A stretch of 21,182 nt of DNA from a virus. Below the pieces are notes generated by a model, which saw only the letters and a list, made by a program, of their open reading frames with translations, made no database searches and was not told the origin of the DNA. Made by a program: the position numbers and the translations under genes. Position 1 is the stretch's first letter. Every line of letters begins with the position of its first letter. Below are positions 1 through 17,418 of this stretch, one piece after another. The stretch covers positions 1-21,182 of the IMG/VR virus record IMGVR_UViG_3300032737_000092; one strand, written 5' to 3'.

Positions 1-262
1 ACCTTACAGCGGTCATTTGTGCAGCTTCACTGTTGTTTACAGTGAGATCTGTATCGGTCTGGATTGCTTCCGGATCTCCATCCAGAGGTTTCCAGAAAGG
101 AAAGTCAAAACTCTTTCCACCACCAGCCACAAGCCTCATGAGCTCAGGGCTTATTACAACAAGTCCAGAAGTGAAGATCACAGATCCAGTGGTCAACGCT
201 TCACGCATATATAATGCAAATAATTCAGGAATTACAACATCAGAAACTTTAGTTACAGCCAT
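1..262 (-). CDS. Major capsid protein, N-terminal part (gene runs off the left edge)
   Basis: The first 87 codons are present; the rest lies outside the window. The translation starts MAVTKVSDVVIPELFALYM and continues with an LMRLVAGGGKSFDFPFWKPL stretch. I recognise this N-terminus from Gp13-like siphovirus major capsid proteins, which usually open with 'VPELFNPYV...' followed by a 'GGGKTxxxPFW' segment; no database search was possible. The start at 262 is supported by an AGGAG site six bases upstream. It lies nine bases after the scaffold gene, the standard scaffold-capsid order. The protein would form the icosahedral shell. Confidence is limited by the truncation and by memory-based recognition. 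Confidence 0.85.
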   Translation of the reverse strand, partial: MAVTKVSDVVIPELFALYMREALTTGSVIFTSGLVVISPELMRLVAGGGKSFDFPFWKPLDGDPEAIQTDTDLTVNNSEAAQMTAVR

Positions 263-271
263 AGTATTCTC

Positions 272-979
272 CTATCGTCTATTTTTCACAAGAGTTGCAT
301 GCATTTGTGGATCCAACTCTTTGAATTTTTCAGGGTCATCTCTGAAGAGATTTGTCTTTTCTGATAGAGTATAATCTTTGTAAGCCTTTTCTTTGGGTGG
401 TGGTGTTCGGAGAGTATTGCTCCCCAACGGTTTCACATTTGCCATCCGTCTCTTAACTTCAGCTTCTACTGTATCAGCAATGATCTTAACGTTATCTGTC
501 TCAAACTTGGTAGTCATACCAACAATTAAATCCGGAAGAGTCTCGATATCAGCTTTCAATAAGTTCCTAGTTACTTCTTTTAAGTTCTCAGGTACTTTTG
601 AAACAGCAGCATCAATTTTAATCCGGAACTCTGAATCCTTATCATTCTTGTTTAGCCTTTCTTTCAGCTCCCGGATCTCTATTTGTTCCGGTGTTTCATT
701 CGGCTTAACTTCTTTGATAATATCTGCTTTCAACTGCTTGAATTCATCAGAATCTTTATAGGTAGTCTTGTAATTCTTGATTCGTTCTTCACTCTGACTG
801 TTAGCATAACTATCAAGATGAGATTTCAGGAGTGGAACGGTTGCAATAAAAGCCTTGGCTTCTTCAGCAGTTTTGATTGCAGATATTGGATTCAGTGTTG
901 AGACAAAAGTTTTTACACCTTCATCATCCTTGTTTGCTTCAAGATACGTTTTGATCTCTTCAACATTCTCTACAGGCAT
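272..979 (-). CDS. Phage capsid scaffold protein (DUF4355-like)
   Basis: This 235-residue, highly charged and mainly helical protein fits the size and composition of scaffold proteins in SPP1-like and related siphoviruses. Long Lys/Glu-rich helical stretches occupy about residues 50-180, and the C-terminal third carries a Pro-rich turn (TPPPKEK) before a basic tail (VKNRR). Basic C-terminal tails of scaffolds often contact the coat protein. GAGGAG lies seven bases before the ATG. The position directly before the major capsid gene is the strongest evidence for the role. It would be a temporary internal core during procapsid assembly. A promoter-like sequence about 110-150 bases upstream may raise expression of this gene and the capsid gene together. 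Confidence 0.85.
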   Translation of the reverse strand: MPVENVEEIKTYLEANKDDEGVKTFVSTLNPISAIKTAEEAKAFIATVPLLKSHLDSYANSQSEERIKNYKTTYKDSDEFKQLKADIIKEVKPNETPEQIEIRELKERLNKNDKDSEFRIKIDAAVSKVPENLKEVTRNLLKADIETLPDLIVGMTTKFETDNVKIIADTVEAEVKRRMANVKPLGSNTLRTPPPKEKAYKDYTLSEKTNLFRDDPEKFKELDPQMHATLVKNRR

Positions 980-1056
980 TTAATTTTCTCCTCAATTTTC
1001 TTCCCAGTTCCAGCCCACATTGCAAGCCCGTTTGCACAGTCAAGCTCCTCAGTCAT
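970..1056 (-). CDS. Possible 28-residue ORF ahead of scaffold gene
   Basis: A short reading frame, MTEELDCANGLAMWAGTGKK and eight more residues, begins at 1056 and ends in TAG overlapping the scaffold start by ten bases. The upstream AGGG lies only one base from the ATG, which is poor spacing for a ribosome site. The overlap with the scaffold start is like that of other coupled genes here. I do not recognise the peptide. It may be a translated leader or chance. Confidence 0.2.
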   Translation of the reverse strand: MTEELDCANGLAMWAGTGKKIEEKIKCL

Positions 1057-1088
1057 TCCCTGGCCTTTATAATACTTATAATATGTTA

Positions 1089-1130
1089 AGCATACATCTG
1101 TTGAGTATACCTGTCAAGATAACTTGTCAA
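1089..1130 (-). promoter_or_regulatory. Sigma-70-type promoter(s) reading into scaffold and capsid genes
   Basis: On the minus strand TTGACA (1112-1117) is followed after 17 bases by TATGCT (1089-1094). A second TTGACA (1125-1130) lies 13 bases upstream in direct repeat and is followed after 15 bases by TATACT (1104-1109). The elements sit just after the stop of the 53-residue gene, with little coding before the scaffold gene. A promoter here would give extra scaffold and major capsid transcript relative to portal and terminase, in line with their high copy numbers in the head. Activity is inferred from the sequence match only. Confidence 0.55.
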
Positions 1131-1136
1131 GGCTCC

Positions 1137-1298
1137 TCAATAGTCATAATCCTCATTTGTTTCAGGCACAAAAGGTTTGTTTTCTTTGATACTTTTCTCT
1201 ATCTGAGCATCAATTTCTTCCGCACTCATTCCCATTACCAGGAACATAGGGAAGTTCTCTCCAAACTTTTCAACATACTTTGTTAGTAAATCAGCCAT
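1137..1298 (-). CDS. Small conserved phage head-region protein, 53 aa
   Basis: A 53-residue frame starts MADLLTKYVEKFGENFPMFL and ends NEDYDY with TGA. It begins directly after the TAA of the MuF-type gene. The pattern 'KYxEKFGENFPxFxxMGM...EExxxxIxxxxKENKPF' is one I have seen in short unnamed proteins lying between minor head and scaffold genes of Firmicutes-type siphoviruses. Its function is unknown. The GGGG at about eight bases before the ATG could act as a weak ribosome site, and coupling to the previous stop is likely. It is acidic at the C-terminus and has no membrane segment. Confidence 0.7.
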   Translation of the reverse strand: MADLLTKYVEKFGENFPMFLVMGMSAEEIDAQIEKSIKENKPFVPETNEDYDY

Positions 1299-3122
1299 TT
1301 ATAACCCCTTTATCATTTCTTGGAATACCTTATAAGATTTAGGTATGTATTTCTTAAAAGTCTCTAACTCAATGGGGTTTGAAAAGGTTGCATCAAACAT
1401 CTCAGCAAAAGCTTCTTTCCCTACTCTTCCAGCATCTCTCTTCCAGTAGGCTTTTCCATGTCCAAATCCTGCTTGTATGTCTCCCTTAGTTGAGCCCTCT
1501 AGTATATCACTGAAATTCCTCTTTTCAAGAATAGGAAGATCAGAGATTTCTTTTTGTAGCTGTCTACGTGCAAAAAACTTTCTGTATCTAACTTTTTGAG
1601 GTACTATGCCTTGATCCTTCCACCTGTTATAGCTCCAACTATCCAAGTAATTATTATCTAGCAACCACTTATAATCTGTTTGATGAGCATTAAGACTGGC
1701 TTTAATTTTCACACCATAACCATCAATCCTATCAGCAATTTCCTTATTTATGGTTTTAGTATATAAACCATCCTTATAAACATTTGAATACCCTGTAAAT
1801 ACATGGCCTTTTTCTCTTGCAATAGCATAATCAATTGCATGGCCTGATTCATGGAATACGGTTTGAGCCTTTGCATTATATTTCCCAGCAACCATCTCTT
1901 TTTTCAGGTTAAAGCTGATATCTCCCTTACCAGGGTTGTAATATGCCGTTTTCCTGAGGTTGATATTTCCTACTTTTATCTGATCTTCATACTTATCCCA
2001 AACCCTAGCAAGTTCTGTATCAGGGCTTTTGTCAATCAAATCATGCAGAGTATCGTAATGCTCTTTGCCTATGTTTTTCGATAAATTAGAATTATAATTC
2101 CTTGCTATTGTTTCGGGAGCTTTTGGAGCTGCTTTCTTAATTTTTGCTTTAGCCTTAGTTTTTCCTGCCGGTTTCTCCCCGGGAAGAGGCTTCCCATTAA
2201 TATCAAGCCCTTTATTCTTCATCCACTCCTCATAGGAGGTTCTACCCTCAATGTCCTCCCAGGATCCATCCAGTTTCCTGGCTCTTCTGGTATCAGGAGA
2301 GAATCCATAAGGATCTGAGCGTTTGTAGCATCTGCATTGGATATCTTGAGCAGCAATTCCGGATCTACGGGGTGTTTTCGTTTGCCCTCCGGAAGCAAAG
2401 AGAAAATAATCCTCTTCATTTGGGTGTGTTTGGTCAAGCAGCCTATGGTCAATCCTGGTAACACCATCAAGAGAGGCATCCCAGGTGTCAGTAAGCTCAA
2501 CACCTGCATCAACGGCAACATCCCTTGCCTGATCATCTCCGATTGAATAAGCCCTGAGCCGTTCAGTTCTCGCTGTCATAACTGCACGATTCTTAGCAGT
2601 TGAATAAATATCATCAACCCCTTTGAGGGCTCTGGCTGTTTCTGGAATTCCTTTTCCTGCAGCTTCTGCTTCTGCAATGACATTCTGAACTTTCTTATTA
2701 AGCCTTTTCTTCTCTTTAGCGGTTCTCTTCTGGAAGGTTAATCCTCCCACTTCCTTAGTTACTGCAGCGTTTACTGCCCTCTGGTTTAAAGTACTGTATC
2801 CAAGTGCATATTGATCACTCCTGCCTATATTTGACCAACGTTCGTATGAGTAACCGTTTTTATAATATGTTTGCCTGAGAGCATCCTCTGAGGATATCCT
2901 GATAAGCTCCCTTGATTGATCTGTAAGAGCAGATAGTTCCCTAGTGAGATCTGATTCAAGCTTTTTGAGCTGTGTTTTTGTAATCTCTGATTTATACCGG
3001 GATAATTTGGATCTCACATTTTTTAAGGATCTGTTATAGATAGCAATGAGGCGCTTATTCAGCGCCTCTGTTTCCCTTAACGCCTTGTTAAATGTCCTAG
3101 CTTGAGCGCTCTCAAGAGCCAT
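1299..3122 (-). CDS. MuF/SPP1 gp7-type minor head protein with C-terminal zinc-metallopeptidase-like domain
   Basis: This 607-residue protein is about twice the length of a plain SPP1 gp7-like head protein. Residues 1-165 are helical and basic. Residues about 170-265 match the Phage_Mu_F domain, with the TDTWDASLDG stretch (211-220), R223, H226 and the end signature DIQCRC (260-265). A Lys/Ala/Pro-rich linker follows (310-338). The C-terminal domain has HESGH (424-428), the HExxH zinc motif, and a later GKEAFAEMF segment (568-576) whose E570 or E574 could be the third ligand, as in lethal-factor-like peptidases. Family knowledge: MuF proteins enter the capsid and some carry toxin domains. Inference: a virion-borne peptidase delivered with the DNA. 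It follows the portal gene, whose GAGGAG end supplies its ribosome site. Confidence 0.85.
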   Translation of the reverse strand: MALESAQARTFNKALRETEALNKRLIAIYNRSLKNVRSKLSRYKSEITKTQLKKLESDLTRELSALTDQSRELIRISSEDALRQTYYKNGYSYERWSNIGRSDQYALGYSTLNQRAVNAAVTKEVGGLTFQKRTAKEKKRLNKKVQNVIAEAEAAGKGIPETARALKGVDDIYSTAKNRAVMTARTERLRAYSIGDDQARDVAVDAGVELTDTWDASLDGVTRIDHRLLDQTHPNEEDYFLFASGGQTKTPRRSGIAAQDIQCRCYKRSDPYGFSPDTRRARKLDGSWEDIEGRTSYEEWMKNKGLDINGKPLPGEKPAGKTKAKAKIKKAAPKAPETIARNYNSNLSKNIGKEHYDTLHDLIDKSPDTELARVWDKYEDQIKVGNINLRKTAYYNPGKGDISFNLKKEMVAGKYNAKAQTVFHESGHAIDYAIAREKGHVFTGYSNVYKDGLYTKTINKEIADRIDGYGVKIKASLNAHQTDYKWLLDNNYLDSWSYNRWKDQGIVPQKVRYRKFFARRQLQKEISDLPILEKRNFSDILEGSTKGDIQAGFGHGKAYWKRDAGRVGKEAFAEMFDATFSNPIELETFKKYIPKSYKVFQEMIKGL

Positions 3123-3125
3123 TTA

Positions 3126-4700
3126 TTACTCCTCTGGTATTCGAGGCTCAACTACACCACCAAACTCTGCAGCAGATTTCTTTCCAAGTTCAGCAATATA
3201 GGCATCAACTACGGCAATAGATGCTTCCTTATCGAGTCCATAAACTTTCATCAAAGCATATTCAAGTCCAGCTGCTCCGGTAAGGGTTTCCAGCTCTTCT
3301 GCTTTTGCCTGGTCATCAACGGGTATGGTTCTTTTGAATGATATTTCAGGAGATTTCTGTGCAGCATAGATAGCTGAAAACTTAGCCTCTCCCTTATTTG
3401 CCATATTGATCAACCGGATCCGGTTATATAGCCATTCCTGCACATAAGCCTGAACCTCAGAGGCTTTGTTCTCCATCGTGAAGATTCTCCATTTAGCTGC
3501 AACTCCGGAGATAGATCCTTTGAAGTTCTCATCATTAGGATTCACAATCTCCATCATATCATAGGAAAGTCTCTCAAACCGGTCAAAGGCTCCAAAGATG
3601 AAAACAGCATCCATTTCTTTTACAAGCCATTTGACAAAGGCATCAGGAGAAATACCATCAAGGCCATCTAAAACTTTTACTTTCTTGAGCGCCTTAATCC
3701 TTTCTGATTGAGTTTCAAGCTCATTCCCATCTTCATCTTCAACGGGAACATCCAGGAAGCCTGACATTACAAGGATAGCATTTGCAAAGCCGGCAAGCTC
3801 ATCAGCAATATCCTCAGATATCGTTTTATCTGCCTGGTCAATTAGCGGTTTTACATGATCAAAGAAATTGATCTGAGCATCATTAGTTTCTAGTACATTA
3901 ACCGGAACAAAACCATAAGTTATCTTATCTTCCAAGGTTTCCCGAAACATATGCTCTCCAGACTTCTCTTCATCAAGTTTCATACTGGTAAGATTGAACG
4001 GAATATTATCATCCATCTGTGTATAGGTTTTCTTTGTCTGGTTTGTGTCCTTATATCCGCTCCCTGTTTTAGCAGTTGCGGTTGTTGCTGAGCATACATA
4101 TACATCAATTCGATTAGGATAATACACATTGATTTGCCCTGATTTATCAGGAAGCGCTATGTAATTAATGGCCCAGTCCACCCCATTTCTCTTAGGATCA
4201 ATATGGATTATCATGCTCTCAGGTTTTACCTTGATAAACATAGCCTCTTTGGTTCCCGGCTCAATAAATAGCACCTCAAAGGCATAAACAAAGGAAAGCG
4301 CATCTTTCAAGGATTGAAGATTATGCACCTCCTCATTGTTGTCTGCAAATATGGCATCATAGAATCTCTGGAAGGTTTCATCTTTATCATTCTCATCCTC
4401 TTTAACTTTTGCCCTATCTTCCAAACTCATTCCATCAGTTGATTTCTTTTTAAACTGGTATTGAATATTCCCAGGCTTTGCCATGTACCCGGAGAAGATA
4501 GATACGCCCTTTTTTGCAAGAGGAACAGCAATCTTGGATTGAGAATCAGATTGAGTGGTTCCAATGACATTTTTACCATCTGCATACTTTCGCTGCTCTT
4601 TCAAGATTCTGAGCCTGGCAACATCTTGCTTAATATAGGATTGAATTTCTGGTATGCTCAAGGGTTCTATATTTGCAATATCATATCCTGCTAATTTCAT
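3126..4700 (-). CDS. Portal protein (SPP1 gp6-like)
   Basis: The 524-residue product fits the Phage_prot_Gp6 portal family in length and layout. The N-terminus has the usual 'I..YI..DV.RL..LKEQRKYADGKNVIG' pattern, followed by a VPLAKKGVSIFSGYMAKPGN segment (79-98) and the ring-core region, and ends with an acidic EPRIPEE tail. Portal proteins form the dodecamer at one capsid vertex through which DNA enters and leaves, and contact terminase and the MuF-type protein. The gene lies between large terminase and the MuF gene, as expected. The start at 4700 has AGGAG six bases upstream. Identification rests on sequence pattern and order together. Confidence 0.9.
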   Translation of the reverse strand: MKLAGYDIANIEPLSIPEIQSYIKQDVARLRILKEQRKYADGKNVIGTTQSDSQSKIAVPLAKKGVSIFSGYMAKPGNIQYQFKKKSTDGMSLEDRAKVKEDENDKDETFQRFYDAIFADNNEEVHNLQSLKDALSFVYAFEVLFIEPGTKEAMFIKVKPESMIIHIDPKRNGVDWAINYIALPDKSGQINVYYPNRIDVYVCSATTATAKTGSGYKDTNQTKKTYTQMDDNIPFNLTSMKLDEEKSGEHMFRETLEDKITYGFVPVNVLETNDAQINFFDHVKPLIDQADKTISEDIADELAGFANAILVMSGFLDVPVEDEDGNELETQSERIKALKKVKVLDGLDGISPDAFVKWLVKEMDAVFIFGAFDRFERLSYDMMEIVNPNDENFKGSISGVAAKWRIFTMENKASEVQAYVQEWLYNRIRLINMANKGEAKFSAIYAAQKSPEISFKRTIPVDDQAKAEELETLTGAAGLEYALMKVYGLDKEASIAVVDAYIAELGKKSAAEFGGVVEPRIPEE

Positions 4701-4752
4701 CTTATGCTCCTGGTTCCTCTCTTGGTCTAGGGAAATTATAACTCAATGATCA

Positions 4753-6153
4753 CTAATCGTCTACCTTTCCTTTTTTACCTCTTTTGTCTCTCTGGGAAAA
4801 CCATCTCATTGCATCTATCTCAAGCGCGTAAATGGTTGAATCTATGGTATGGTCATTTCCATCTTCCGGAATGTTCTGTATCACTCCCCGGCTATCAATC
4901 TGCCATTTCCATTTAGCAAACTCCCGTGCTGCAGTAGGGCAATTAGTTTTATGTATGTAAATATGATCAAAATGCTTGAGATAATCGATCATTGAATTCT
5001 TATAGGCTCCAGCTTTCCGCTGCCTCCGGGAATTCATAACATTCTTCCGGGCTCCCATGATGGGAACGTGCAGCACGGTAATGAGCTTCCGGATAAGGTC
5101 CGGCCGGGAAGAATCTCCAACTCTCCTGGAGGCTTTCCGGATAAGATCCTTATTATCTTCCATCTGGTTGATATAGGGATCTATATTCCCGGTATAATTC
5201 ATCAGTTCATGGGGTATATACAGATCATTCCCGTCAACATATGACCAAGTATTTGCATAGGGATCTGCTCCACCGTTTGAGAAATCAAGCCCCATTCTCC
5301 AGGCAATTGAATTATCCGGTTCATATTCACATACCCGGATATTCCTCATAATTGTTGCTTCGGTTATCTCCAGGAACTTACCCTCCCATATCCACTCATA
5401 CTCATCTTTGGATAAGTGCTTTTCGTCATAGTCCTTGAGTGCCTTGAGCACATCAGTAAAAAACGGGTTATCTCTCCAGCTGATTCTCTTCACCACGGAT
5501 CCAGGAAACGCTTTCATGATATCACCTGCAGTATCAACACCATCTTTCTCAATGAATCGCTGACTGGTAGGATCTTCACGCTCAAAAGGGTTGAATATAA
5601 CCCAGATCTGACTGCCAGGCTTTCTGATTGTGGGAAGGATTATCTTCCAACTCTTCTCTGATACGTCCTGAGCCTCTTCAATAAACATGATATCAGCATC
5701 ATCAAAGGATTTGAAAGTATTGATGTTATGAGCAAGTAAACCCACAAAATGAAAAGAGGATCCGGTTCTTTCGTTCCGGATCTCTTCCCCCGTGATAACA
5801 AACTGCTTATCTAGTCCAAGGTTTGAAATCCATTTCTCAATTACTGATTTGCTTGAGTCCTTGATTGAAGTCTTTGTTTCTCTAGCGCAAACCACCTTTA
5901 GCTTGCTGTCGTTTGCCATTAGCACAAGATTCTGAGAGAGTGATTCTGATTTTGCAGCTCCACGGCCTGAATTATAGCATTTAAAATGCCCTGGCTGAAA
6001 TAGATCTTCAAAAACTAACGGGGTCCGGGTAATTCTGAGCCCTGCGCTTGGAAATTCTTCATAAGGAATGATCATCTCTAATGAGAAATCAACTCCCAGG
6101 GCTTTTGCCTGAGAGCTGATCCATCTGGTTTCCTGAGCGGTTAATGTTCTCAA
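4753..6153 (-). CDS. terL: Terminase large subunit
   Basis: The 466-residue protein has both terminase domains. In the ATPase part, GRGAAKS (63-69) is the variant Walker A and IMFIEEAQ (155-162) the Walker B with catalytic Glu. In the nuclease part, the acidic residues are D290 in GLDFSNGGADP, D347 in GDSSRPD and D434/D438 in NDHTID. It resembles PBSX/SPP1-type large terminases. It would cut concatemers and drive DNA into the procapsid through the portal. The start is a TTG at 6153: GAGG lies eight bases upstream and overlaps the end of the preceding gene; the next in-frame ATG (residue 27) would remove conserved N-terminal sequence. The gene ends in TAG, 52 bases before the portal gene. Confidence 0.95.
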   Translation of the reverse strand: MRTLTAQETRWISSQAKALGVDFSLEMIIPYEEFPSAGLRITRTPLVFEDLFQPGHFKCYNSGRGAAKSESLSQNLVLMANDSKLKVVCARETKTSIKDSSKSVIEKWISNLGLDKQFVITGEEIRNERTGSSFHFVGLLAHNINTFKSFDDADIMFIEEAQDVSEKSWKIILPTIRKPGSQIWVIFNPFEREDPTSQRFIEKDGVDTAGDIMKAFPGSVVKRISWRDNPFFTDVLKALKDYDEKHLSKDEYEWIWEGKFLEITEATIMRNIRVCEYEPDNSIAWRMGLDFSNGGADPYANTWSYVDGNDLYIPHELMNYTGNIDPYINQMEDNKDLIRKASRRVGDSSRPDLIRKLITVLHVPIMGARKNVMNSRRQRKAGAYKNSMIDYLKHFDHIYIHKTNCPTAAREFAKWKWQIDSRGVIQNIPEDGNDHTIDSTIYALEIDAMRWFSQRDKRGKKGKVDD

Positions 6154-6156
6154 TTA

Positions 6157-6393
6157 TTATTCCTCAAACTGAGGCTTTTTTGCATGGATCCGTTGTGGTT
6201 GAAGTGGCTTATTGAATGTCATTAAATTAAGCCAAACTTTCCCATGAATGAGCACCATCAATCTCTCTTTCCATGATAAAGCCCAGCATGAAGTGACATC
6301 CCCGGATTTTGATTTGTGAACCGGCAACGGGAGATATTCTGGCTGATCTTTCGCATAGGTTACGTTTACTTCTTTGAACTCTATTGGATTCAT
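6157..6393 (-). CDS. Conserved small phage protein next to terminase, 78 aa
   Basis: The 78-residue product has the pattern 'EFKEVNVTYAKDQPEYLPLP..........VTSCWALSWKERLMVLIHGKVWL...TFNKPLQPQ'. I recognise this pattern from short unnamed phage and prophage proteins that often lie near terminase genes. The middle 'WKERLMVLIHGKVWL' is amphipathic and aromatic. It contains no clear catalytic motif and its function is unknown. AGAAGG precedes the ATG by seven bases, and its last codons provide the ribosome site of terL, so the two are probably translationally coupled. Confidence 0.75.
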   Translation of the reverse strand: MNPIEFKEVNVTYAKDQPEYLPLPVHKSKSGDVTSCWALSWKERLMVLIHGKVWLNLMTFNKPLQPQRIHAKKPQFEE

Positions 6394-6395
6394 GA

Positions 6396-6896
6396 TTATA
6401 CCTTCTTGAAATCTTTTAGATCCGGGGTATTATTCTGCTTCTTCCTTCTCTTATTTGCTTGAAACCGATCAATGTACTTATTCAGCCTGTTCACCTTTTT
6501 AATTGCAATTCTATCAAAGAAATCTGGATCATCAGCACCAAATACAAAGCAGAGAGAAATCTGTGTAATCCAAAGATCAACAATCTCTTCACGGATATTT
6601 TCAAGATCATGAGGCGTTCCATCTGCAAGATTAAACCTTGCTAATGCTGCCGTAAGCTCTCCCATCTCCTCAATTGCTTTAGTTACTTGGTTCTTTATCC
6701 CAAACTCTTCCAGGGCTCTCCTTGCTGCAGTCCTTGCCAGAAATTCAACTGATACATCCTCACCAATACCAAGCTTCTCTGCCAGGTTCTCAATAGGCTC
6801 CATATCTTCTGGAATATCAACCTTTTGAGTAACAGGATCAAGCAGTTGAGGATTACCAAACTTCTCTACACTATTAACTTTTTCCTTTTCTTTCAT
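6396..6896 (-). CDS. MazG-like nucleotide pyrophosphohydrolase
   Basis: The 166-residue, mostly helical protein carries the paired acidic motifs of the all-alpha NTP-pyrophosphatase (MazG-like) superfamily: E77xxE80 in AIEEMGEL and E104xxD107 in REEIVD. The segment 'NIREEIVDLWITQISLCFVFG' is typical of phage members. The N-terminal 50 residues are an extra charged region, and the C-terminus is very basic (QANKRRKK). Such enzymes hydrolyse (d)NTPs to monophosphates and can clean nucleotide pools or lower alarmone levels; the actual substrate cannot be read from sequence. It lies between the two terminase genes, an unusual place for a nucleotide enzyme. GAGAGG lies six bases before the ATG. Confidence 0.85.
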   Translation of the reverse strand: MKEKEKVNSVEKFGNPQLLDPVTQKVDIPEDMEPIENLAEKLGIGEDVSVEFLARTAARRALEEFGIKNQVTKAIEEMGELTAALARFNLADGTPHDLENIREEIVDLWITQISLCFVFGADDPDFFDRIAIKKVNRLNKYIDRFQANKRRKKQNNTPDLKDFKKV

Positions 6897-6911
6897 AATA
6901 TACCTCTCTTT

Positions 6912-7493
6912 TTATTTTTCGGGAACCTCAGTTCCCTTGAATGGTATGAATCCAGAAACCCCGTTTTTATTCCCTTCAGGGTTTCCATCCCTGATAGTAT
7001 GATCAACTTTGTCATTGAAAAACCCGCCTATCCGGTTAAGCTGCTCAATGGCATTGTTCTGATTAGCATAAGTTACCTTGATTCCATCCTTTTTCTGTTC
7101 AATGCTTGCAACTGCATAACCGTGCTTGAAATCTTTTGTATCCTTTACGGTAACTCTTTGCCCCTGTCTGGTTTCTGTTTTCCCGGTATCTTTGCCTTTT
7201 TTATTAAAAATTGGAACCTGATAATCATATGTTTCTATTTTAACATCATCGGTAACATCAGCAATGGCAATGGCTTTAAGCTTATGGATGAGCTCATATT
7301 CAAGCCCTTCTTTCTCTTTTTCAAGTAGCTTAGAAGCTAGTTTTTTAAGATATTCCTTTATTTCAGCATTTTTCAACAGCCGGGATCCTTGTGAATATGC
7401 TGACCTAGGAGAGTACTTTGCCCGGATAGCAGAATTAGTAATGTGTCCACATTTCAAATACTCTCTGCAGAACTTCTTACGCTTTTCAGTCAT
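6912..7493 (-). CDS. terS: Terminase small subunit (Terminase_2-like)
   Basis: The 193-residue protein has an N-terminal helix-turn-helix region of the Terminase_2 type: 'KRKKFCREYL....ITNSAIRAKYSPRSAYSQGSRLLKN' (about residues 4-42). This is followed by a helical 'EYLKKLASKLLEKEKEGLEYELIHKLKAIAIAD' and a tail with 'NNAIEQLNRIGGFF', all standard for this family. It would bind pac/cos DNA and deliver it to the large subunit. It precedes the packaging genes in transcription order but is separated from terL by two small genes. The ribosome site (AGAGG) is about 11 bases upstream of the ATG, longer than usual. Confidence 0.9.
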   Translation of the reverse strand: MTEKRKKFCREYLKCGHITNSAIRAKYSPRSAYSQGSRLLKNAEIKEYLKKLASKLLEKEKEGLEYELIHKLKAIAIADVTDDVKIETYDYQVPIFNKKGKDTGKTETRQGQRVTVKDTKDFKHGYAVASIEQKKDGIKVTYANQNNAIEQLNRIGGFFNDKVDHTIRDGNPEGNKNGVSGFIPFKGTEVPEK

Positions 7494-7530
7494 AAATATA
7501 CACTACCTCTTGATTGATTAATTAGCAAGG

Positions 7531-7945: not shown

Positions 7946-9088
7946 TCAATCAAATCCCGGTATTGAATCATCCTGCTGGATATCTTCTTTTTTTTCTAAA
8001 ATCCATTCCCCATTTTCCAAATCATAAGATACCCCACAATTATTGCAAATCATCAGATCATGAAGTTTTTTTATTAATTTATCAGATCCACATACTGAAC
8101 ACTTATCAAGATCTTTAATCTCTGCAGATTTCCTGAGTCCAGGATTCTTCTCTCCATCATTCCTCTGCCAATTCCTCACAGCTGCCTTCCAATCCTTCAT
8201 ACGGGTTTTTCCAATCATCCAATCCTTTGATTGATAATAGTCATAAAATTTGTGGTAATCACAGGAATAATTTATCTCTTTGCAGTATTCTGCAAACTCT
8301 TCTTTCTGAGGTTTTTTAAAGTTATGTTTTGCGCTCTTACTCTTAATTATAATATTAGAGTCAAGATCAGAGTCAAGATTAATATCAGAGTCAGAGTCAA
8401 GATTTATCTGGACTTTTTGATCTAGTTTCCTTTTTTCCACATAGCCTATATGGACTTTTATAATATTAGGTGTTATTTCCATATACCCCTTATGGATTTT
8501 AAGGTGGCAATCCTTGCATACGGGTATTAGATTGATGATATTATTATTCCCACCGTTCTCCACTTCCTTAATATGGTGGATATCAATTTCTTCACTGCTC
8601 CCACATAAAGAGCATTTTCCTTTATACAAATCTATGATTAATTTCTTTTTTGTGCCTGATATTTTATTCCTAGATTCCCTTGATATTATTACATTGTCTA
8701 TTTCTGCTAGATCAAATTGATAGCCTATCCTGTTTAATTTATTTAGTAATTCTTTGGGAAGTGCTTTTAAAATAAATATTATACCCTTTAAAACTTTCTC
8801 TGAAGTCTGCCATTTTTGATGCTTTGGCCAGTTCAGCATAATAATATGATTCATCGAATAACATACTTTTTTATATTCTTCTAGCCGTTTCAGAAATACT
8901 TCAATTTCTGTTTTTTCAAAGGCTGATTCAATCGCAATCCTTCTGATTGATATCTTATAAATCCCGGCAATATTGGTGTGTTCATTTGTCAGAAGGTAGA
9001 AATAGAATAACTTTTCTTTTTTGCTCAGTTCTTCCACAAACCAATCATCATCCCATATTGAGGTTGAAATATATCGTTGCTTTGCCAT
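7946..9088 (-). CDS. Replisome-organizer-like replication protein with embedded HNH domain and C-terminal zinc ribbon
   Basis: Residues 1-100 resemble the N-terminal DNA-binding part of phage replisome organizers ('SIWDDDWFVEELSKKEKLFYFYLLTN...GIYKIS'). Residues about 145-201 form an HNH nuclease-type domain: C159/C162, D169-IHH (H171, H172), N186, C191/C194 and H195/H199. A repetitive acidic linker (about 227-245) follows. Residues 257-311 match the organizer C-terminal module ('YCKE..Y..D..KFYDYYQSKDWMIGKTRMKDWKAAVRNWQRN'). A zinc ribbon (C330/C333, C348/C351) and the tail DDSIPGFD end the protein. It probably opens the origin and recruits host replication proteins. The ribosome site is a run of eight Gs. 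If the TGA were read through, only two residues would be added. Confidence 0.8.
   Translation of the reverse strand: MAKQRYISTSIWDDDWFVEELSKKEKLFYFYLLTNEHTNIAGIYKISIRRIAIESAFEKTEIEVFLKRLEEYKKVCYSMNHIIMLNWPKHQKWQTSEKVLKGIIFILKALPKELLNKLNRIGYQFDLAEIDNVIISRESRNKISGTKKKLIIDLYKGKCSLCGSSEEIDIHHIKEVENGGNNNIINLIPVCKDCHLKIHKGYMEITPNIIKVHIGYVEKRKLDQKVQINLDSDSDINLDSDLDSNIIIKSKSAKHNFKKPQKEEFAEYCKEINYSCDYHKFYDYYQSKDWMIGKTRMKDWKAAVRNWQRNDGEKNPGLRKSAEIKDLDKCSVCGSDKLIKKLHDLMICNNCGVSYDLENGEWILEKKEDIQQDDSIPGFD
8347..8469. repeat. Iteron-like repeats inside the replication gene; candidate origin
   Basis: AGAGTCAAGAT (plus strand) occurs three times, at 8357-8367, 8369-8379 and 8393-8403. The AT-rich 12-mer TTATAATATTAG flanks the cluster at 8347-8358 and 8458-8469. 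The repeats encode the acidic Asp/Ser/Leu linker of the replication protein. In lambda, the origin iterons lie within the O initiator gene in a comparable position, so this could be the binding region for this gene's product. They may equally be a by-product of the low-complexity linker. Confidence 0.4.
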
Positions 9089-9623: not shown

Positions 9624-10349
9624 TCAATTCTCCCTTTCTTTTTTATAGATAGCTGCCTTTAGCTTTGCAATGGATAGGCCGGTCTTTGTAAGATCCTTAT
9701 CGTTAAATCTGAGATGATTAATATTGAGGATTCTGTTTTCATCCCTGGTTATCAGAGCAAGATTATCAATGGAGAAATTTCTCATATCTCCATCAAGGAA
9801 GGTAACTATTTTATCATCAGGAATCTTGATCTGATGATATTCTTCATAAAGGATCCTGTGCTTTGCTTCCCAAAGTTTAGGATCTGCAATCTTTCTCCAT
9901 ATATACCCATCTTTTGATAAAACTTCTGAGCCAATAGGTAACTTATTTTTTGGAATATGCCCCTTCTTGAAAGTTGTTTTTGATACCTTTTTAATCTGTT
10001 CAGGCGTCAAATATTCTTCCCACTTCTTACCTTTATTATCTGGAATATGACCATTAGCAAATCTACTATTAGCAAATCTACCAGTAGAGACACCTTTCAG
10101 TTTATTCCCTCTATCATAGCTAAAATGACACTTCTGACAAAGAGCTTTTAATCTATCATCAGTAACTTCCCAATTATCCGGATCATGGTCCAGATGAGCA
10201 ATTGTCAATACAACCCTGGATCCAGTTATAGGATGAGCCTGGTAGTTCTCTGCAGCACATTCTTCACACTTATGATCTGCCCTCTCCAGGATCCGTGGCC
10301 TGATTTCCGTTTTCCAATTAGGTGGATATTTAGTATAATCACAAGGCAT
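9624..10349 (-). CDS. HNH endonuclease built from two different HNH domains
   Basis: The 241-residue protein joins two nuclease-type domains that are usually separate. The first (residues 1-80) is the classical zinc HNH found in phages: C28xxC31, AHLDHD (51-56), C71xxCH (71-75). A middle segment has two 'F..GHIP.NK' repeats (98-106 and 127-135). The second (about 138-232) is HNH_3-like: a KH (163-164) in the KHRILYEEY helix, then the D186-G and N191...IDNL (194-197) pattern, and a TKTGLSIAKLKAAI tail. HNH_3 proteins in phages are often free-standing homing nucleases. The stop TGA lies just before the next gene's ATG. GAGGGGG precedes the start, which shares one base with the previous TAA. Confidence 0.85.
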   Translation of the reverse strand: MPCDYTKYPPNWKTEIRPRILERADHKCEECAAENYQAHPITGSRVVLTIAHLDHDPDNWEVTDDRLKALCQKCHFSYDRGNKLKGVSTGRFANSRFANGHIPDNKGKKWEEYLTPEQIKKVSKTTFKKGHIPKNKLPIGSEVLSKDGYIWRKIADPKLWEAKHRILYEEYHQIKIPDDKIVTFLDGDMRNFSIDNLALITRDENRILNINHLRFNDKDLTKTGLSIAKLKAAIYKKEREN

Positions 10350-10910: not shown

Positions 10911-13900
10911 TTATGATGATTTCTTAAAAATGATTTGCTGCTGCACAGAAGCCTGAATAACCAGATCATGAGTTATTAAAACCGTGTGATATCTGCCAGC
11001 TGCCTGATGAGCCTTTTCCACCATGCTCAGATAAAGGTGTTTATTCTCTGGAGATAATGCTCCATCAGCTTCATCCTGGAAGTTCGTTACATAGCTCAAC
11101 CCCGTGTTTCTTTCCCGGATGATACCAAAGGCATCATAGAGAGCTTTATTGATCCATACCAGCTCACCACCGGAGAGGGTAGAGAGTTTCTGTTCATTTG
11201 ATAGATCATCAATATCAAGCTCATTATCAGTAATGTACACTTCAAAATCCTCTGCCTGATGCACATTGCTACCGGAACCAACTTCTTTTGTTGTCTGGAA
11301 CCGTATGCTGAACTTAGGACCATACGCATCTACTAGGAGAAGATTTGCTTCATCTGCAATTGCTGGAGCAAGAGCATCTAGTTCAAGCGCCTGGATCCCA
11401 TCACGGGAGAGCCCGCGCTGCACAAGCTTCCAGGAAGCAATAATATCAATACTCGATTTTATCGCTTCCTTTTTGCTGCTTACCTGGTTAATAAGGTTGT
11501 CAAGGTTTGCAATTTTCTCTTCTACAGATTTTGACTGCAGTTCAAGATCCCTGATATTTCTGTTCACATTTTCAATATCAGAATTGACATCAAATAGGTT
11601 CCCATAAAATGCTTCATCTTCAGGAGTAATGGAAATTATCCCATCTGTAGCAATTTTATGCTTTGCCTGGTTTTCAGCTATTTTTTTATCATATTCTTTG
11701 ATGTTTTCCTGCTGCATAGCAATGGTATCTTCAGCTGCATCACACTTTCTCACAATCTCTTTTGCTCGATCATAACTATCAGCAAAATTAGAAACCCGTC
11801 TTTTCAGGCTTTCGATTGCTTCGGTTAATTCTACGGGTGGATGGATCTCTGGATCTATGGGAACGATGAGTCCTTTAAGATCAGAATCAAGCGCAATTTC
11901 CTGCTTATTTGCTACAGTAAGCCCGGCTTTAGAATTGTAAATAGTTTTTTCAGAAGCCTTAATTTTTGACTCTATTTCAGTTATTCGTTCCTGAATTGTA
12001 CCCTGAATATGTCCACATTTTTCACAGGGATCCTTAATCATTTCAATAGTTTTCTTATTGCTAACAATCTGATCTTCATTGCTCTTTATTGCATGATTAA
12101 AATCATTAACAATCCCATCATTTACCCGGATCATTTGATCAATCTCTGATTTTAGAGAATTGTATATTTGAACTAATTTATTATAATCAGCAGTCTTGAC
12201 ATTATTCTCTGTATCAATCAGAACTTTTTCAGAAACTTTCTTATCCAGTTTTTCCTTCATCTGTTCATATTCGACAATATCAAGTTTAGAATTGGGAAGC
12301 TTCTGCAGGAGTATCTCACTTGATTTGATAGTAAGCTCAGATAATTCCTTTTTTTCAGCATATTCTTGTATCTCATCAAGATAGGGTTGAAGCTGTTTTT
12401 CAAGAGTGGAATTTTTCAACTTTCTTTCATCCAGAAATTTTACCTGTTTTTCCAGGGATTCTTTAAGCTCACTGAAAGTTTTAAGATCTAATTTATGCCC
12501 TTCAATCAATGCTTCATTATTAGCAGCAACTACCTGCAGATCTTCCCTAGTGGATCCAGCATCAATAAGTTCCTGGAGAGTAGAAATACTCAATTTTGCT
12601 TTTTCAATTTGCGCTTCTAGTTCATCAGATTTTTTCTTTGCAAACTCATAAGCTTTCTGCAGATATTCATTCCCCATCAGTTCATTGAATAATTCTTTTC
12701 TGCCCTTCGGGGTTGCTGGAAGATCAATATTGCCTTGAGCAATGTAAACACTTCGCTGGTACATTTCCGGAGATCCAAAGATCTGGAGAATTGCAGCCTC
12801 ATAAGGTCCTTTTAGTCCAGATACTTCTGCACTTATCGGCTCCCATTCACTTCCCGGATGCTGGATATTCAAAAAAAATTCAGCTTTGCCGGTTGCAGCC
12901 TTTCCATTGATAAGCCATTTTGTTTGATATTTGATGCCAGTAACTGTATCAGTGAATTCCTTTATACACTGAGAATCCCGGAGGTAAAAAAGATCTTGCA
13001 TTTTTGTGCAATTAGGATCTAATGGAGAGGCATAAGGTGCACATAATTTGATAAAAGTTGATTTTCCAGCTCCGTTATCACCCAATAACGCAATAGTTCC
13101 TGCAGTAAAGTTATTAAAATCAACAGTAACTTCTTCTTTATCCTGGCCTTTCCTGAATCCGATTGCTCCCCTGGCAAAGAAGAAATCAAGCCTGAGCTTT
13201 TTGCTCTGATGCTCAAAACCTTCTTTCCGGATCATTTCCTTTACTTCCCCGATATGTTCAGTGTTAAGTGCAGATATATCCTGCAGCCCAGTTGAACTTT
13301 CGTGCCAGATCCGGAACTTTTCAGCCAGATCTCTATTATTTGCAATCTCAGGAGCTCTGGCTGTTTCAGTATTTATAATCTTAGCACTCACGCGAGAATC
13401 CTCTACAGCGCCCCATTCTTTCATAAGCCATGCAAGGACATCACTTACCACCAGTTCTCTCCTGCGGTTGGCCTCAATGCTTACCTCAAGCCAAACCCTC
13501 TGCCCGTTTACATCATTGGAAGTGATTAAATTCACATCATCAAAATGCCGGTTCATTTTTATCATAGGAGGATGAGGGAAGTTGATTGTCTTATGCTTAA
13601 TCTCCCTGTTGGAATATTCTACCAGGGAGAATGCTTTCTGATCTTTCTCTCCCCATGTTTTTGGGAAAAATGATCCTTCATACCAGATACTAGGGGCAAG
13701 CTCCTGCCTCATGTGAATATGGCCACAAGAAACATAATCAAATCCAACTGAAGCAAGCATCTGAGCAGTAACATCAATAGATCCTTCCGGGAGAGTTTGT
13801 GTATCAGAGATCTTGGATCCTCTCACTGTTCCGTGAAAAACTCCGATTGAGGGAATCTCCTGCATATCAACATCTGCTGAAAGCATAGAGAAAAGAGCAG

Positions 13901-14405
13901 CTAAACCTTTTGAAGCAATTTCCCTGGCTTCATCTCCGGAGAGTTTTTCCTGATCATTTGCAATCAACCAGGATTTATTGGGTTCAGGTATTCCATATAT
14001 TGCAGCAATAGCTTTTTTAGGAACCTCACAATCATTATAAATCTGATTAGTTTGCACGTTTCCACCATTAATCAGGTAGGAAACCTCTCCAGGTTGTAGG
14101 ATAATAAACGGATATTCTGCTGCAAATCGTGGAAAAACCTCCAGGGATCCCGGAATATCATGGCTTTTTGTTCCTTCCACGGTAAAAACCGGAGCAATAT
14201 TCATCAATTCTGTGATAAAATCCAACAATTCCGGCATTGCTGCAGACTCAGAGTTGTTAATTACTCTATCTGCAGTATCTCCTGCAAGAATAAAAAAATC
14301 TGGATTTTCTTTTAATGCAGTATAGATAAAGAATTCTGCAGATTTACGAAAACTTTTTAAATAATCTTTGTGATAATGTATATCAGCTGTGGATAAAAAT
14401 TTCAT
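10911..14405 (-). CDS. Single-chain SbcD-SbcC (Mre11-Rad50) fusion nuclease/ATPase
   Basis: The N-terminal 400 residues are a Mre11/SbcD metallophosphoesterase: D8xH10, GD (42-43), GTKSHD (78-83, in place of the usual GNHD), H191, and GHIH (228-231). Residues 403-1164 are a Rad50/SbcC ATPase: Walker A GDNGAGKS (442-449), a coiled coil, zinc hook CEKC (794-797), a second coiled coil, signature LSGGE (1077-1081), Walker B ending DEAD (1111-1114) and H-loop THD (1145-1147). SbcCD/MR complexes process DNA ends and hairpins; T4 gp46/47 and T5 D12/D13 are phage examples made from two genes. Here they are one polypeptide of 1164 residues with no stop between. AGGAG lies six bases before the ATG. It follows the candidate annealing gene. 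Confidence 0.95.
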   Translation of the reverse strand: MKFLSTADIHYHKDYLKSFRKSAEFFIYTALKENPDFFILAGDTADRVINNSESAAMPELLDFITELMNIAPVFTVEGTKSHDIPGSLEVFPRFAAEYPFIILQPGEVSYLINGGNVQTNQIYNDCEVPKKAIAAIYGIPEPNKSWLIANDQEKLSGDEAREIASKGLAALFSMLSADVDMQEIPSIGVFHGTVRGSKISDTQTLPEGSIDVTAQMLASVGFDYVSCGHIHMRQELAPSIWYEGSFFPKTWGEKDQKAFSLVEYSNREIKHKTINFPHPPMIKMNRHFDDVNLITSNDVNGQRVWLEVSIEANRRRELVVSDVLAWLMKEWGAVEDSRVSAKIINTETARAPEIANNRDLAEKFRIWHESSTGLQDISALNTEHIGEVKEMIRKEGFEHQSKKLRLDFFFARGAIGFRKGQDKEEVTVDFNNFTAGTIALLGDNGAGKSTFIKLCAPYASPLDPNCTKMQDLFYLRDSQCIKEFTDTVTGIKYQTKWLINGKAATGKAEFFLNIQHPGSEWEPISAEVSGLKGPYEAAILQIFGSPEMYQRSVYIAQGNIDLPATPKGRKELFNELMGNEYLQKAYEFAKKKSDELEAQIEKAKLSISTLQELIDAGSTREDLQVVAANNEALIEGHKLDLKTFSELKESLEKQVKFLDERKLKNSTLEKQLQPYLDEIQEYAEKKELSELTIKSSEILLQKLPNSKLDIVEYEQMKEKLDKKVSEKVLIDTENNVKTADYNKLVQIYNSLKSEIDQMIRVNDGIVNDFNHAIKSNEDQIVSNKKTIEMIKDPCEKCGHIQGTIQERITEIESKIKASEKTIYNSKAGLTVANKQEIALDSDLKGLIVPIDPEIHPPVELTEAIESLKRRVSNFADSYDRAKEIVRKCDAAEDTIAMQQENIKEYDKKIAENQAKHKIATDGIISITPEDEAFYGNLFDVNSDIENVNRNIRDLELQSKSVEEKIANLDNLINQVSSKKEAIKSSIDIIASWKLVQRGLSRDGIQALELDALAPAIADEANLLLVDAYGPKFSIRFQTTKEVGSGSNVHQAEDFEVYITDNELDIDDLSNEQKLSTLSGGELVWINKALYDAFGIIRERNTGLSYVTNFQDEADGALSPENKHLYLSMVEKAHQAAGRYHTVLITHDLVIQASVQQQIIFKKSS

Positions 14406-14422
14406 TTGACGCTCCTTTTAAG

Positions 14423-15493
14423 CTATTTGTTGTAAACCTTTGCTAATCCGTTAAGAAGCAGGTTTGCTTTCCCAACATCAATAGGGCTCTGTTCCAGAAC
14501 ACTTCTGATTTTTGCTAAATTTTCCTTATTGGGATCCCCTAATTTCCCCACTTTATCATTGAGATAAACAACTGAATCTGAGGCTTCCCAATCACTGAGC
14601 TTCCTCCGGAGATCCCTCTGCTCTGCCTGTAAGCTTTCATCTTCAATTTCCATCTCAGGCTCTTCAAAGCCTGGAATACTATCATCACTCTGCTCAGATA
14701 CTACTGCAGAAACATCTCCAGCAAGCTCAGCTGGCTTTGGATTAGATTGTGATCCTTTTCTACCATAAAGGTTTTCTGTTATCCCTAGCGCCTTATTAAG
14801 CACCTGCGCTTGACCTTCAGGAGTTTGCATGGCAAGGCCAATAAGTTTATTTTTGTACTTCTGAGATTCAACCGTTTGACTGAAACACATATCCTTTTTA
14901 AGATCTTCTTTTTTGAAAGCTGTCGGGATCCCGGCAATCTCCCGGATGGATGCAAGCTCTGCTCCAGTTGCTGCCCTACGGGTTGAAAACTTTTTCACCT
15001 GCAGGAGTTTCTTCCGTGCATCCATAATGGATTTAGGACGATATTGAGCCTGATCATTCATCCTATCCTCATTAAACCTATCAGCGACATTAAACTCATA
15101 AGCTGCTCCAGAGCTTTCCCTCATGGTTCCATCTGGAGCCCTTCGGATTGCAACTGCAGAGGATTTTACTGAATAATTACCCTTAACCTGCCATACACCC
15201 TCAAATTGATAAAGTGTATCAAGAAGATTGTCAAAATCTCCCTCAGTCCATGTTTTTGATTTAGCAGGTAAAAATGATACCCCAACTGCATCTGCAATTT
15301 GATGCTGTGCTGCTTTCATGGGATAATTATTCCCTCTTCCTACTTCAGCAAAATCTACTGGATTAAAACTGATGATGGTTGTTAATGGTTCATATTGCTC
15401 TGAAACATCCATGATTTCATCTCTTCTGGCAAAGATTAATGCACCGCTTCTTTTTGCCTGATCCATTACCGCTAATGCTTTTGATACTTCCAT
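14423..15493 (-). CDS. Putative ssDNA-annealing/recombination protein (family not identified)
   Basis: The start at 15493 has GAGGAGG five bases upstream; a frame extending 26 codons to 15571 has only a weak site. The 356-residue protein contains 'YPMKAAQHQIADAVGV' and 'VKSSAVAIRRAPDGTMRESS' stretches, then 'KSIMDARKKLLQVKKFSTRRAATGAELASIREIAGIP'. That last 'K....R......A.TGA..R.I..IAGIP' helix recalls Erf/RecT/Rad52-type annealing proteins, in which a similar segment precedes the disordered tail. The tail holds DDSIPGF (about 270-276) and an acidic coiled stretch. It lies between a helicase gene and the SbcCD fusion gene, the place where an annealing protein is expected. Without a profile search the family stays open; it might be a different DNA-binding protein. 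Confidence 0.5.
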   Translation of the reverse strand: MEVSKALAVMDQAKRSGALIFARRDEIMDVSEQYEPLTTIISFNPVDFAEVGRGNNYPMKAAQHQIADAVGVSFLPAKSKTWTEGDFDNLLDTLYQFEGVWQVKGNYSVKSSAVAIRRAPDGTMRESSGAAYEFNVADRFNEDRMNDQAQYRPKSIMDARKKLLQVKKFSTRRAATGAELASIREIAGIPTAFKKEDLKKDMCFSQTVESQKYKNKLIGLAMQTPEGQAQVLNKALGITENLYGRKGSQSNPKPAELAGDVSAVVSEQSDDSIPGFEEPEMEIEDESLQAEQRDLRRKLSDWEASDSVVYLNDKVGKLGDPNKENLAKIRSVLEQSPIDVGKANLLLNGLAKVYNK

Positions 15494-15587
15494 AGTACCC
15501 TCCTCATAAATTATAAAATGTTGGCCAGGACGTATCACTGTACCATAGGAACTTTTTAACCGCTTTCCCATCGGTTCTCATTACTCA

Positions 15588-15840: not shown

Positions 15841-17418
15841 TTATATGTATAAATCGCGTAATTTCATCCAAACCTTTGTAAGCTCTGGAAGTGTCATTTC
15901 CTCCAGTGATTTATCACATATCATGCGGATCCGTTTATAAAAGAGTTTCCTGGCAATGAGTAGGGCTCCCTGATTCTTTCCGGAAAGCTCCATATCCTTG
16001 ATATTCCGGATCTCCTTTTTTAAAATCTCCTCCTGAGTGGATGGAGTAACATAGGAAAGATCTGGAACATATTCCTCATGATCATCTGCAGCGGATTTTA
16101 AAGGATTTATCCAGGGCTCAGGATTTCCTTCCGGTTCATAATCAGCATCTTCTGGATTCTTTTCACCCCGTTCATTTTGATCATGTATAGAAAGCAGCTG
16201 CTCCTGTTCAATTGTCCTGATAGCTTCTTTGATCCTCATGTCATTAGGAAGGAATATTGTACAAAACTTTTTCCAGGAGCCCCATATTCTATTGCCTCTG
16301 GCAAACATCTGCTCTAACCAGGGAATAGATCTGATCCCGGTTAAGGCTGCGATTACTGTTACCGGTTTAACGCTCAAACCTTCATAGGCCATTGCTACAG
16401 TTACCAGGATATGCAGATCTCCGGTTTTAAAATCTTCAATGTTTCTCCTGGCCTGGATAGTTTCCTCAGAAGTTGCAATCTTTGCTCTAAGCTTGTGCAT
16501 GGATTTTATATGCTGCAGGTAGAATTGTGCATGTTCAATATCTGGAGATACAACCAGGAGTTTAGGGCTTTCACTTTCCATGTTCAAAATAACGCAATTT
16601 TCCTGCATGTTTGTCAACCAATCCTGCTGATCCTTTTTCCATTGCAGAATTGCAGCATCTAAAAGCTGGTAAGCGTATTCAGTCCGGAGAGCTGTAAACA
16701 AAGCCCTGGAAGAAAGTTTTTCATTTTTGGTTGAAATATGAGAGGATCTAGTTATTCCTTTTTCTTCCCAGGTAGCCTGACCATCCAGCATCTTGAATTT
16801 ATACGGAAGTATTGCTTTGTCCTGGAGCCCCTGTTCCCTGGAATATTCAATTACCCTGGTTGTTTTTGTCTCAGAAAGATCAATATACATCCCATTATAA
16901 TCCAAAAATGCAATTTTCTTTCCATCTCCACGGGAAAAAGTGCCAGAAGCAAAGACTTTTAACCAGGCATTTTCCATTATTGGAGCAAGAGCTGCTTCCC
17001 ATTCACTTCCTGCAGCAACATGATGAGGTTCATCCAGGAAAATTATATATTTATGCTTTTTAACTTCCTGGAGATGGATCTCCGGATTCTGGCCAATAGC
17101 CTGGTAGGTTGTGATATACCCCTGTAAACCTCTGCATGGGTCCACATCATTAATTGCTGCCCGGATCCTGTGAGGAGTTTTCCAACGTGCATCTGTGAAT
17201 TCTTCCTCTCCCTGCCACTTGAGAGCATTCCGGGGAACTATCCAGAGGATCCTATCTGCAACTGTAGGAATGAGGGAATCCGCTAAAATAACCGGGAGGG
17301 CTGATTTGCCTCCTCCCGGCTTAACTGATGCAATTATGCTTTCAGGCTTTTCTCCTGATAATATATCTTTGCAGATATCAAGCATTTCTTTTTGGTGCTT
17401 GCGTAGTTCAAATTTCAC
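15841..17418 (-). CDS. DEAD/DEAH-type superfamily 2 DNA helicase
   Basis: This 525-residue protein has the SF2 helicase motifs in order. Walker A is KPGGGKS (33-39), motif Ia is IVPRNAL (60-66), the DEAH-like box is DEPH (129-132), motif III is SGT (158-160), and motif VI is QMFARGNR (370-377). The N-terminal 'LRKHQKEMLD' corresponds to the Q-like HQ motif. Such phage helicases include T4 UvsW-like branch-migration enzymes. Long acidic segments and a helical C-terminus follow motif VI. The start is GTG at 17418, overlapping the previous gene's TGA (GTGA), with GGAG five bases upstream. It is the first gene of the recombination block; a role in remodelling recombination or replication intermediates is inferred from its neighbours. 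Confidence 0.9.
   Translation of the reverse strand: MKFELRKHQKEMLDICKDILSGEKPESIIASVKPGGGKSALPVILADSLIPTVADRILWIVPRNALKWQGEEEFTDARWKTPHRIRAAINDVDPCRGLQGYITTYQAIGQNPEIHLQEVKKHKYIIFLDEPHHVAAGSEWEAALAPIMENAWLKVFASGTFSRGDGKKIAFLDYNGMYIDLSETKTTRVIEYSREQGLQDKAILPYKFKMLDGQATWEEKGITRSSHISTKNEKLSSRALFTALRTEYAYQLLDAAILQWKKDQQDWLTNMQENCVILNMESESPKLLVVSPDIEHAQFYLQHIKSMHKLRAKIATSEETIQARRNIEDFKTGDLHILVTVAMAYEGLSVKPVTVIAALTGIRSIPWLEQMFARGNRIWGSWKKFCTIFLPNDMRIKEAIRTIEQEQLLSIHDQNERGEKNPEDADYEPEGNPEPWINPLKSAADDHEEYVPDLSYVTPSTQEEILKKEIRNIKDMELSGKNQGALLIARKLFYKRIRMICDKSLEEMTLPELTKVWMKLRDLYI

Follow-up and report, generated by a model that had tools for sequence, protein, structure and literature searches.

The locus analysed here raises the question of whether a phage can carry SbcD and SbcC (Mre11 and Rad50), the nuclease and the ATPase of a universal machinery for processing DNA breaks, as one polypeptide and, if so, what such a protein might do. 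The window, i.e. the whole stretch of DNA that was analysed, is a linear virus record of 21,182 bases, and we regard it as phage DNA because terminase subunits, a portal and a MuF-like head protein are also encoded there. The MuF-like protein (1299-3122, minus strand; 607 aa) has a C-terminal extension with the sequence HESGH, a possible zinc metallopeptidase motif. Positions 10911-14405 form one uninterrupted ATG-to-stop frame of 1164 codons, as reported in the first-pass annotation, which omitted that the gene lies on the minus strand. Its features, with the evidence for each in brackets, are as follows.

10911..14405, minus strand: sbcDC fusion gene, 1164 aa (17 in-frame fused homologues, AlphaFold mean pLDDT 86)
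14412..14417, minus strand: AAGGAG, Shine-Dalgarno-like, 6 bases 5' of the fusion ATG (sequence only)
13656..14405, minus strand: SbcD/Mre11 phosphoesterase domain, residues ~1-250 (Pfam Metallophos, Foldseek to 3thn)
14157..14174, minus strand: variant nuclease motif III GTKSHD, residues 78-83, GNHD in canonical Mre11 (sequence, alignments)
13374..13634, minus strand: Mre11 capping domain, residues ~258-344 (model secondary structure, alignment)
13224..13328, minus strand: Mre11 helix-loop-helix, helices 360-372 and 379-394 (model, 3tho_B match)
13203..13223, minus strand: linker joining the halves, residues 395-401 (model, DNA)
12669..13202, minus strand: Rad50 N-lobe including Walker A (442-449), residues 402-579 (motifs, profile, model)
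12033..12668, minus strand: outgoing coiled coil, residues 580-791 (model)
12015..12026, minus strand: zinc hook CEKC, residues 794-797 (CxxC in 17 of 18 fused proteins)
11409..12005, minus strand: returning coiled coil, residues 801-999 (model)
10926..11396, minus strand: Rad50 C-lobe with LSGGE, Walker B/D-loop DEADG and H-loop THD, residues 1004-1160 (motifs, model)

Both halves of the protein are full-length. The SbcD/Mre11 half comprises nuclease, cap and helix-loop-helix, and the Rad50/SbcC half contains Walker A, the CxxC hook, the signature, DEADG and the H-loop. Each motif named in the first-pass annotation was found at the residues given there, on the nuclease side D8xH10, GD 42-43, H191 and GHIH 228-231, and on the Rad50 side Walker A 442-449, CEKC 794-797, LSGGE 1077-1081, DEADG 1111-1115 and THD 1145-1147. 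A profile search did find the Mre11 domain on which that reading depended, Pfam Metallophos matching residues 1-231 (E 1e-5), and a PHROG SbcC-like profile matches residues 535-1162 (E 3e-22). The NCBIfam SbcD and Rad50 models also match, with scores below their cut-offs; the profile of the fusion family gave E-values of 5.5e-39 against E. coli SbcC and 1.3e-37 against Thermotoga maritima Mre11.

The AlphaFold model of the fusion (monomer, 63 aligned sequences; mean pLDDT 86, pTM 0.59) has its parts in the expected order: nuclease, cap, helix-loop-helix, N-lobe, coils with hook, and C-lobe. Foldseek matched the first part of the model to Mre11 3thn (TM 0.76 on target) and, over 426 columns, to T. 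maritima Mre11 3tho_B, and the remainder to Rad50/SMC chains. The cap and helix-loop-helix region is retained between the nuclease and the Rad50 lobe, according to the model and the 3tho_B match, and helices 360-372 and 379-394 would bind the base of the Rad50 coil. The linker that follows them has about 7 residues in the model, versus the 9-12 suggested for the helix-loop-helix-to-Rad50 span (PMC3175470). CEKC 794-797 sits between antiparallel coil helices, one ending at residue 791 and the other starting at 801; at the hook residues the model has a low pLDDT.

The search for other fused members that had been proposed at the outset gave 17 more IMG/VR contigs with an in-frame fusion, i.e. 18 with the window. 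Since single-sequence scans of viral contigs with the full protein or with the nuclease half found no relatives, alignments were needed, and the relatives were found by scans with improved alignments; as the search was pattern-based, the counts of fused contigs are lower bounds. L088 was counted as fused because a single ORF contains both halves. One fused homologue in another viral contig is 35% identical to the window protein end to end, and the ATPase motifs and the CxxC hook are conserved throughout the fusion clade. The first relatives to be reached, those of phage LE1 and of plasmids from Leptospira and Burkholderiales, are all two-gene systems. When four fused proteins were used as tblastn queries, no isolated phage with a member of the fused clade appeared among the INPHARED matches listed.

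A concatenated FastTree phylogeny was built from 66 pairs, both fused and unfused. In it, a single clade (support 0.92; 0.86 and 0.82 for the halves taken singly) takes in 17 of the 18 fused proteins, including that of the window. The fused clade, a group of uncultivated phages consisting of the window and 16 contigs, received an ultrafast bootstrap of 100 in an IQ-TREE analysis of 56 taxa, where its neighbours are two-gene phage loci; its nearest unfused relatives keep two genes. Both trees comprise phage and plasmid-type sequences only. The fusions of contig L142 and of the human faecal phage clone MT837445.1 (GenBank; our locus L158) group outside the main clade with bootstrap 100 and are separate events, which makes at least three fusion events in this set of sequences. 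The MT837445.1 fusion (2-3472), whose 5' end is cut off, groups with a Moorella phage and L080. The L142 fusion (3917-7522) has GNHD as its motif III and lacks a CxxC hook.

The joining of two frames by a sequencing or assembly error, with two overlapping genes in the real phage as in LE1, was a serious rival, because the separate genes of LE1 and the Leptospira plasmids overlap by ATGA and their products (387 and 779 aa) add up to nearly the length of the fusion, but it is rejected as practically impossible, given that 17 other contigs are fused in frame (16 of them in the clade of the window), that the Rad50 boundary has no start codon, that both alternative frames at the junction are full of stops and that the closest homopolymer of at least 6 bases lies about 70 codons away. 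The frameshift foreseen as a danger in the first-pass annotation did not materialise, and the gene of the window is a true phage fusion of SbcD with SbcC.

As both halves are in one chain, the fusion has the fixed 1:1 stoichiometry that had been predicted for it. A gene that is truly fused might, nevertheless, also give free Rad50, either from an internal start at Met391 or by proteolysis of the linker, and the stoichiometry would then not be fixed. The ATG at codon 391 is preceded by GGGGAAGTAAAGGAA, and a start there would yield a product of 774 aa, close to the 779 aa of LE1 SbcC. However, Met391 is not conserved in the fused clade, the linker is short and the AlphaFold model is confident across it, so that we regard such a second product as very improbable.

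The description of the phosphoesterase motif set as 'full' has to be qualified. The DxH, GD, H and GHIH elements are present, but motif III, which had been left out, reads GTKSHD. This motif is usually GNH[DE], and its asparagine is a metal ligand in canonical Mre11. In the window protein the histidine of motif III is retained and the asparagine is replaced. The catalytic histidine (H82) is invariant in all 18 fused proteins, while the asparagine position is occupied by S, T or A in 17 of them; SbcD proteins of Burkholderiales plasmids have a GTxSHE form in common with the window motif. With the asparagine replaced, nuclease activity or metal use may differ from canonical Mre11, and the claim made here is accordingly one of an Mre11-fold homologue with a variant site, rather than of a canonical SbcD active site. 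Six members of the clade (L083, L084, L087, L094, L098 and L099) have GDIH in place of GHIH.

An Mre11/Rad50 fusion as such is not new. Yoshida et al. (2011, PMC3175470) reported thirteen, among them proteins from Mimivirus (R555), bacteria, Bacillus phage 0305phi8-36, Clostridium kluyveri plasmids, a Deferribacter megaplasmid and some eukaryotes; they argued that joining the two proteins agrees with the geometry of the complex, and proposed that viruses are the home of such fusions. Compared by description, those proteins and the window protein have both domains in one chain, Mre11 first, and are sporadic and tied to mobile elements. R555 is longer (1351 versus 1164 aa) and has a variant phosphoesterase site with D at the position of H206 (PMC3175470), a His-to-Asp change that matches the GDIH of the six clade members. 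The 0305phi8-36 fusion is described as missing a P-loop segment together with the cap/helix-loop-helix region (PMC3175470), whereas the P-loop segments, cap and helix-loop-helix are all present in the window fusion. In the literature searched, we found no earlier description of a clade of fused phage proteins with every domain intact, or of its constant neighbour (see below); the novelty is the fused clade and its partner gene.

Among two-gene systems, E. coli SbcCD has the same nuclease, cap, helix-loop-helix, ATPase lobes, coils and CxxC hook. It differs from the window fusion in being encoded by two genes, as well as in motif III (GTKSHD in the fusion) and in its coils, which were correctly expected to be shorter in the phage protein: they extend for about 210 residues each way, and the Rad50 half has about 764 aa versus the 1048 aa of E. 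coli SbcC. The separate SbcD and SbcC of Leptospira phage LE1 (gp75/gp74) are 24% identical to the fusion over 95% of its length and also have an upstream partner gene (gp76), but their genes overlap, motif III is GNHD and the hook has no CxxC spacing.

The partner lies directly upstream of the fusion and is followed, in the upstream direction, by a helicase gene.

14423..15571, minus strand: partner gene, phrog_13782 family, predicted RAD52-like fold (conserved position, AlphaFold, Foldseek)
15841..17418, minus strand: SF2 helicase, UvsW/RadD-like, upstream of the partner (Pfam, PHROG, NCBIfam; homologues in four fused loci)

Partner homologues 5' of SbcD or of a fusion were found as 71 ORF hits, which correspond to about 60 distinct phage or phage-like loci after removal of duplicates, and at almost all phage loci, whether or not the nuclease is fused, the partner is directly 5' of it. 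It is upstream in 16 of the 17 fused relatives, the exception being L094, which has almost no upstream sequence, and also at the unfused loci of phage LE1 and the Leptospira plasmids. A helicase homologue lies upstream at four fused loci. Elsewhere in the window, the product of 7946-9088 (minus strand) is a DnaD-like replication protein over residues 1-108, carries an HNH nuclease domain in mid-protein (~150-210) and has an A2L-type zinc ribbon near the end (326-355). The two halves of an HNH endonuclease encoded at 9624-10349 (minus strand) match different HNH families: phrog_1571 (1-84), and phrog_1891 and HNH_3 (72-241).

The family of the partner, phrog_13782, is a PHROG without assigned function, and the protein matched no Pfam family. 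Its AlphaFold model is confident (core pLDDT >90), and in a Foldseek search of the PDB the eight best matches are all human RAD52 (E 0.011-0.064, low TM); among the BFVD viral models a phage RAD52-like recombinase ranks second. The comparison with the ERF profile by hhalign gave a probability of 0, the partner sequence had no sequence match among PDB chains, and among the relatives of one Burkholderiales genome, Rad52 family searches yielded too few sequences to build a profile. As no sequence-level test supported it, kinship with RAD52 is a lead only and, with no profile similarity to a known family, the partner is not assigned to the RAD52 superfamily of annealing proteins. Its predicted fold is closest to RAD52, with a weak resemblance, and makes it a putative RAD52-fold annealing protein.

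We consider it likely that the locus encodes a single-chain phage SbcCD that resects DNA ends and acts together with a strand-annealing partner in recombination-dependent replication and repair. Two fusion chains, in contact at the ATPase heads, the Mre11 halves and the zinc hook, would make up the usual M2R2 complex as a dimer, whose stoichiometry would be fixed by the covalent linkage. When the Rad50 lobes bind ATP, this would gate the access of DNA ends to the nuclease, which would clip and resect the end to leave single-stranded DNA; if E. coli SbcCD and T4 gp46/gp47 are a guide, the fusion most likely binds DNA ends and resects them under the control of ATP. The exposed strand would then be handed over to the upstream partner, which may pair it with a homologous strand, assisted by the neighbouring helicase, and the outcome would be recombination-dependent phage replication and repair. 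T4 gp46/gp47 is thought to resect ends for recombination (PMC3016280). It resembles the fusion as a phage Mre11/Rad50 pair linked with end resection and recombination, and differs in having separate genes. T4 uses UvsX/UvsY, as opposed to the RAD52-like partner proposed here.

A role outside recombination can also be envisaged, in which the fusion degrades host or competing DNA, or shields the ends of the phage DNA against nucleases of the host, while the partner regulates it or binds ends. The departure of motif III from canonical Mre11 and a partner without an annotated family would agree with this. We consider it unlikely, however, as the neighbours of the gene in the window are replication genes, a helicase gene and the partner, whose predicted fold is RAD52-like. 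Within the recombination reading, which we prefer, a bolder and distinctly tentative suggestion is that of a separate type of recombination module, in which a one-chain Mre11-Rad50 whose metal site is a variant, consistently paired with a so far unrecognised RAD52-fold annealing family (phrog_13782) and often with an SF2 helicase, might couple resection and annealing in one operon.

With its short coils and a mass of about 130 kDa, a natural single-chain Mre11-Rad50 would be convenient for structural and single-molecule work, and makes the question of fixed stoichiometry testable. The close link of the nuclease to a gene with a RAD52-like predicted fold likewise gives phrog_13782 a testable function, and suggests that in some phages SbcCD is paired with an annealing protein, as Exo is with Beta in lambda.
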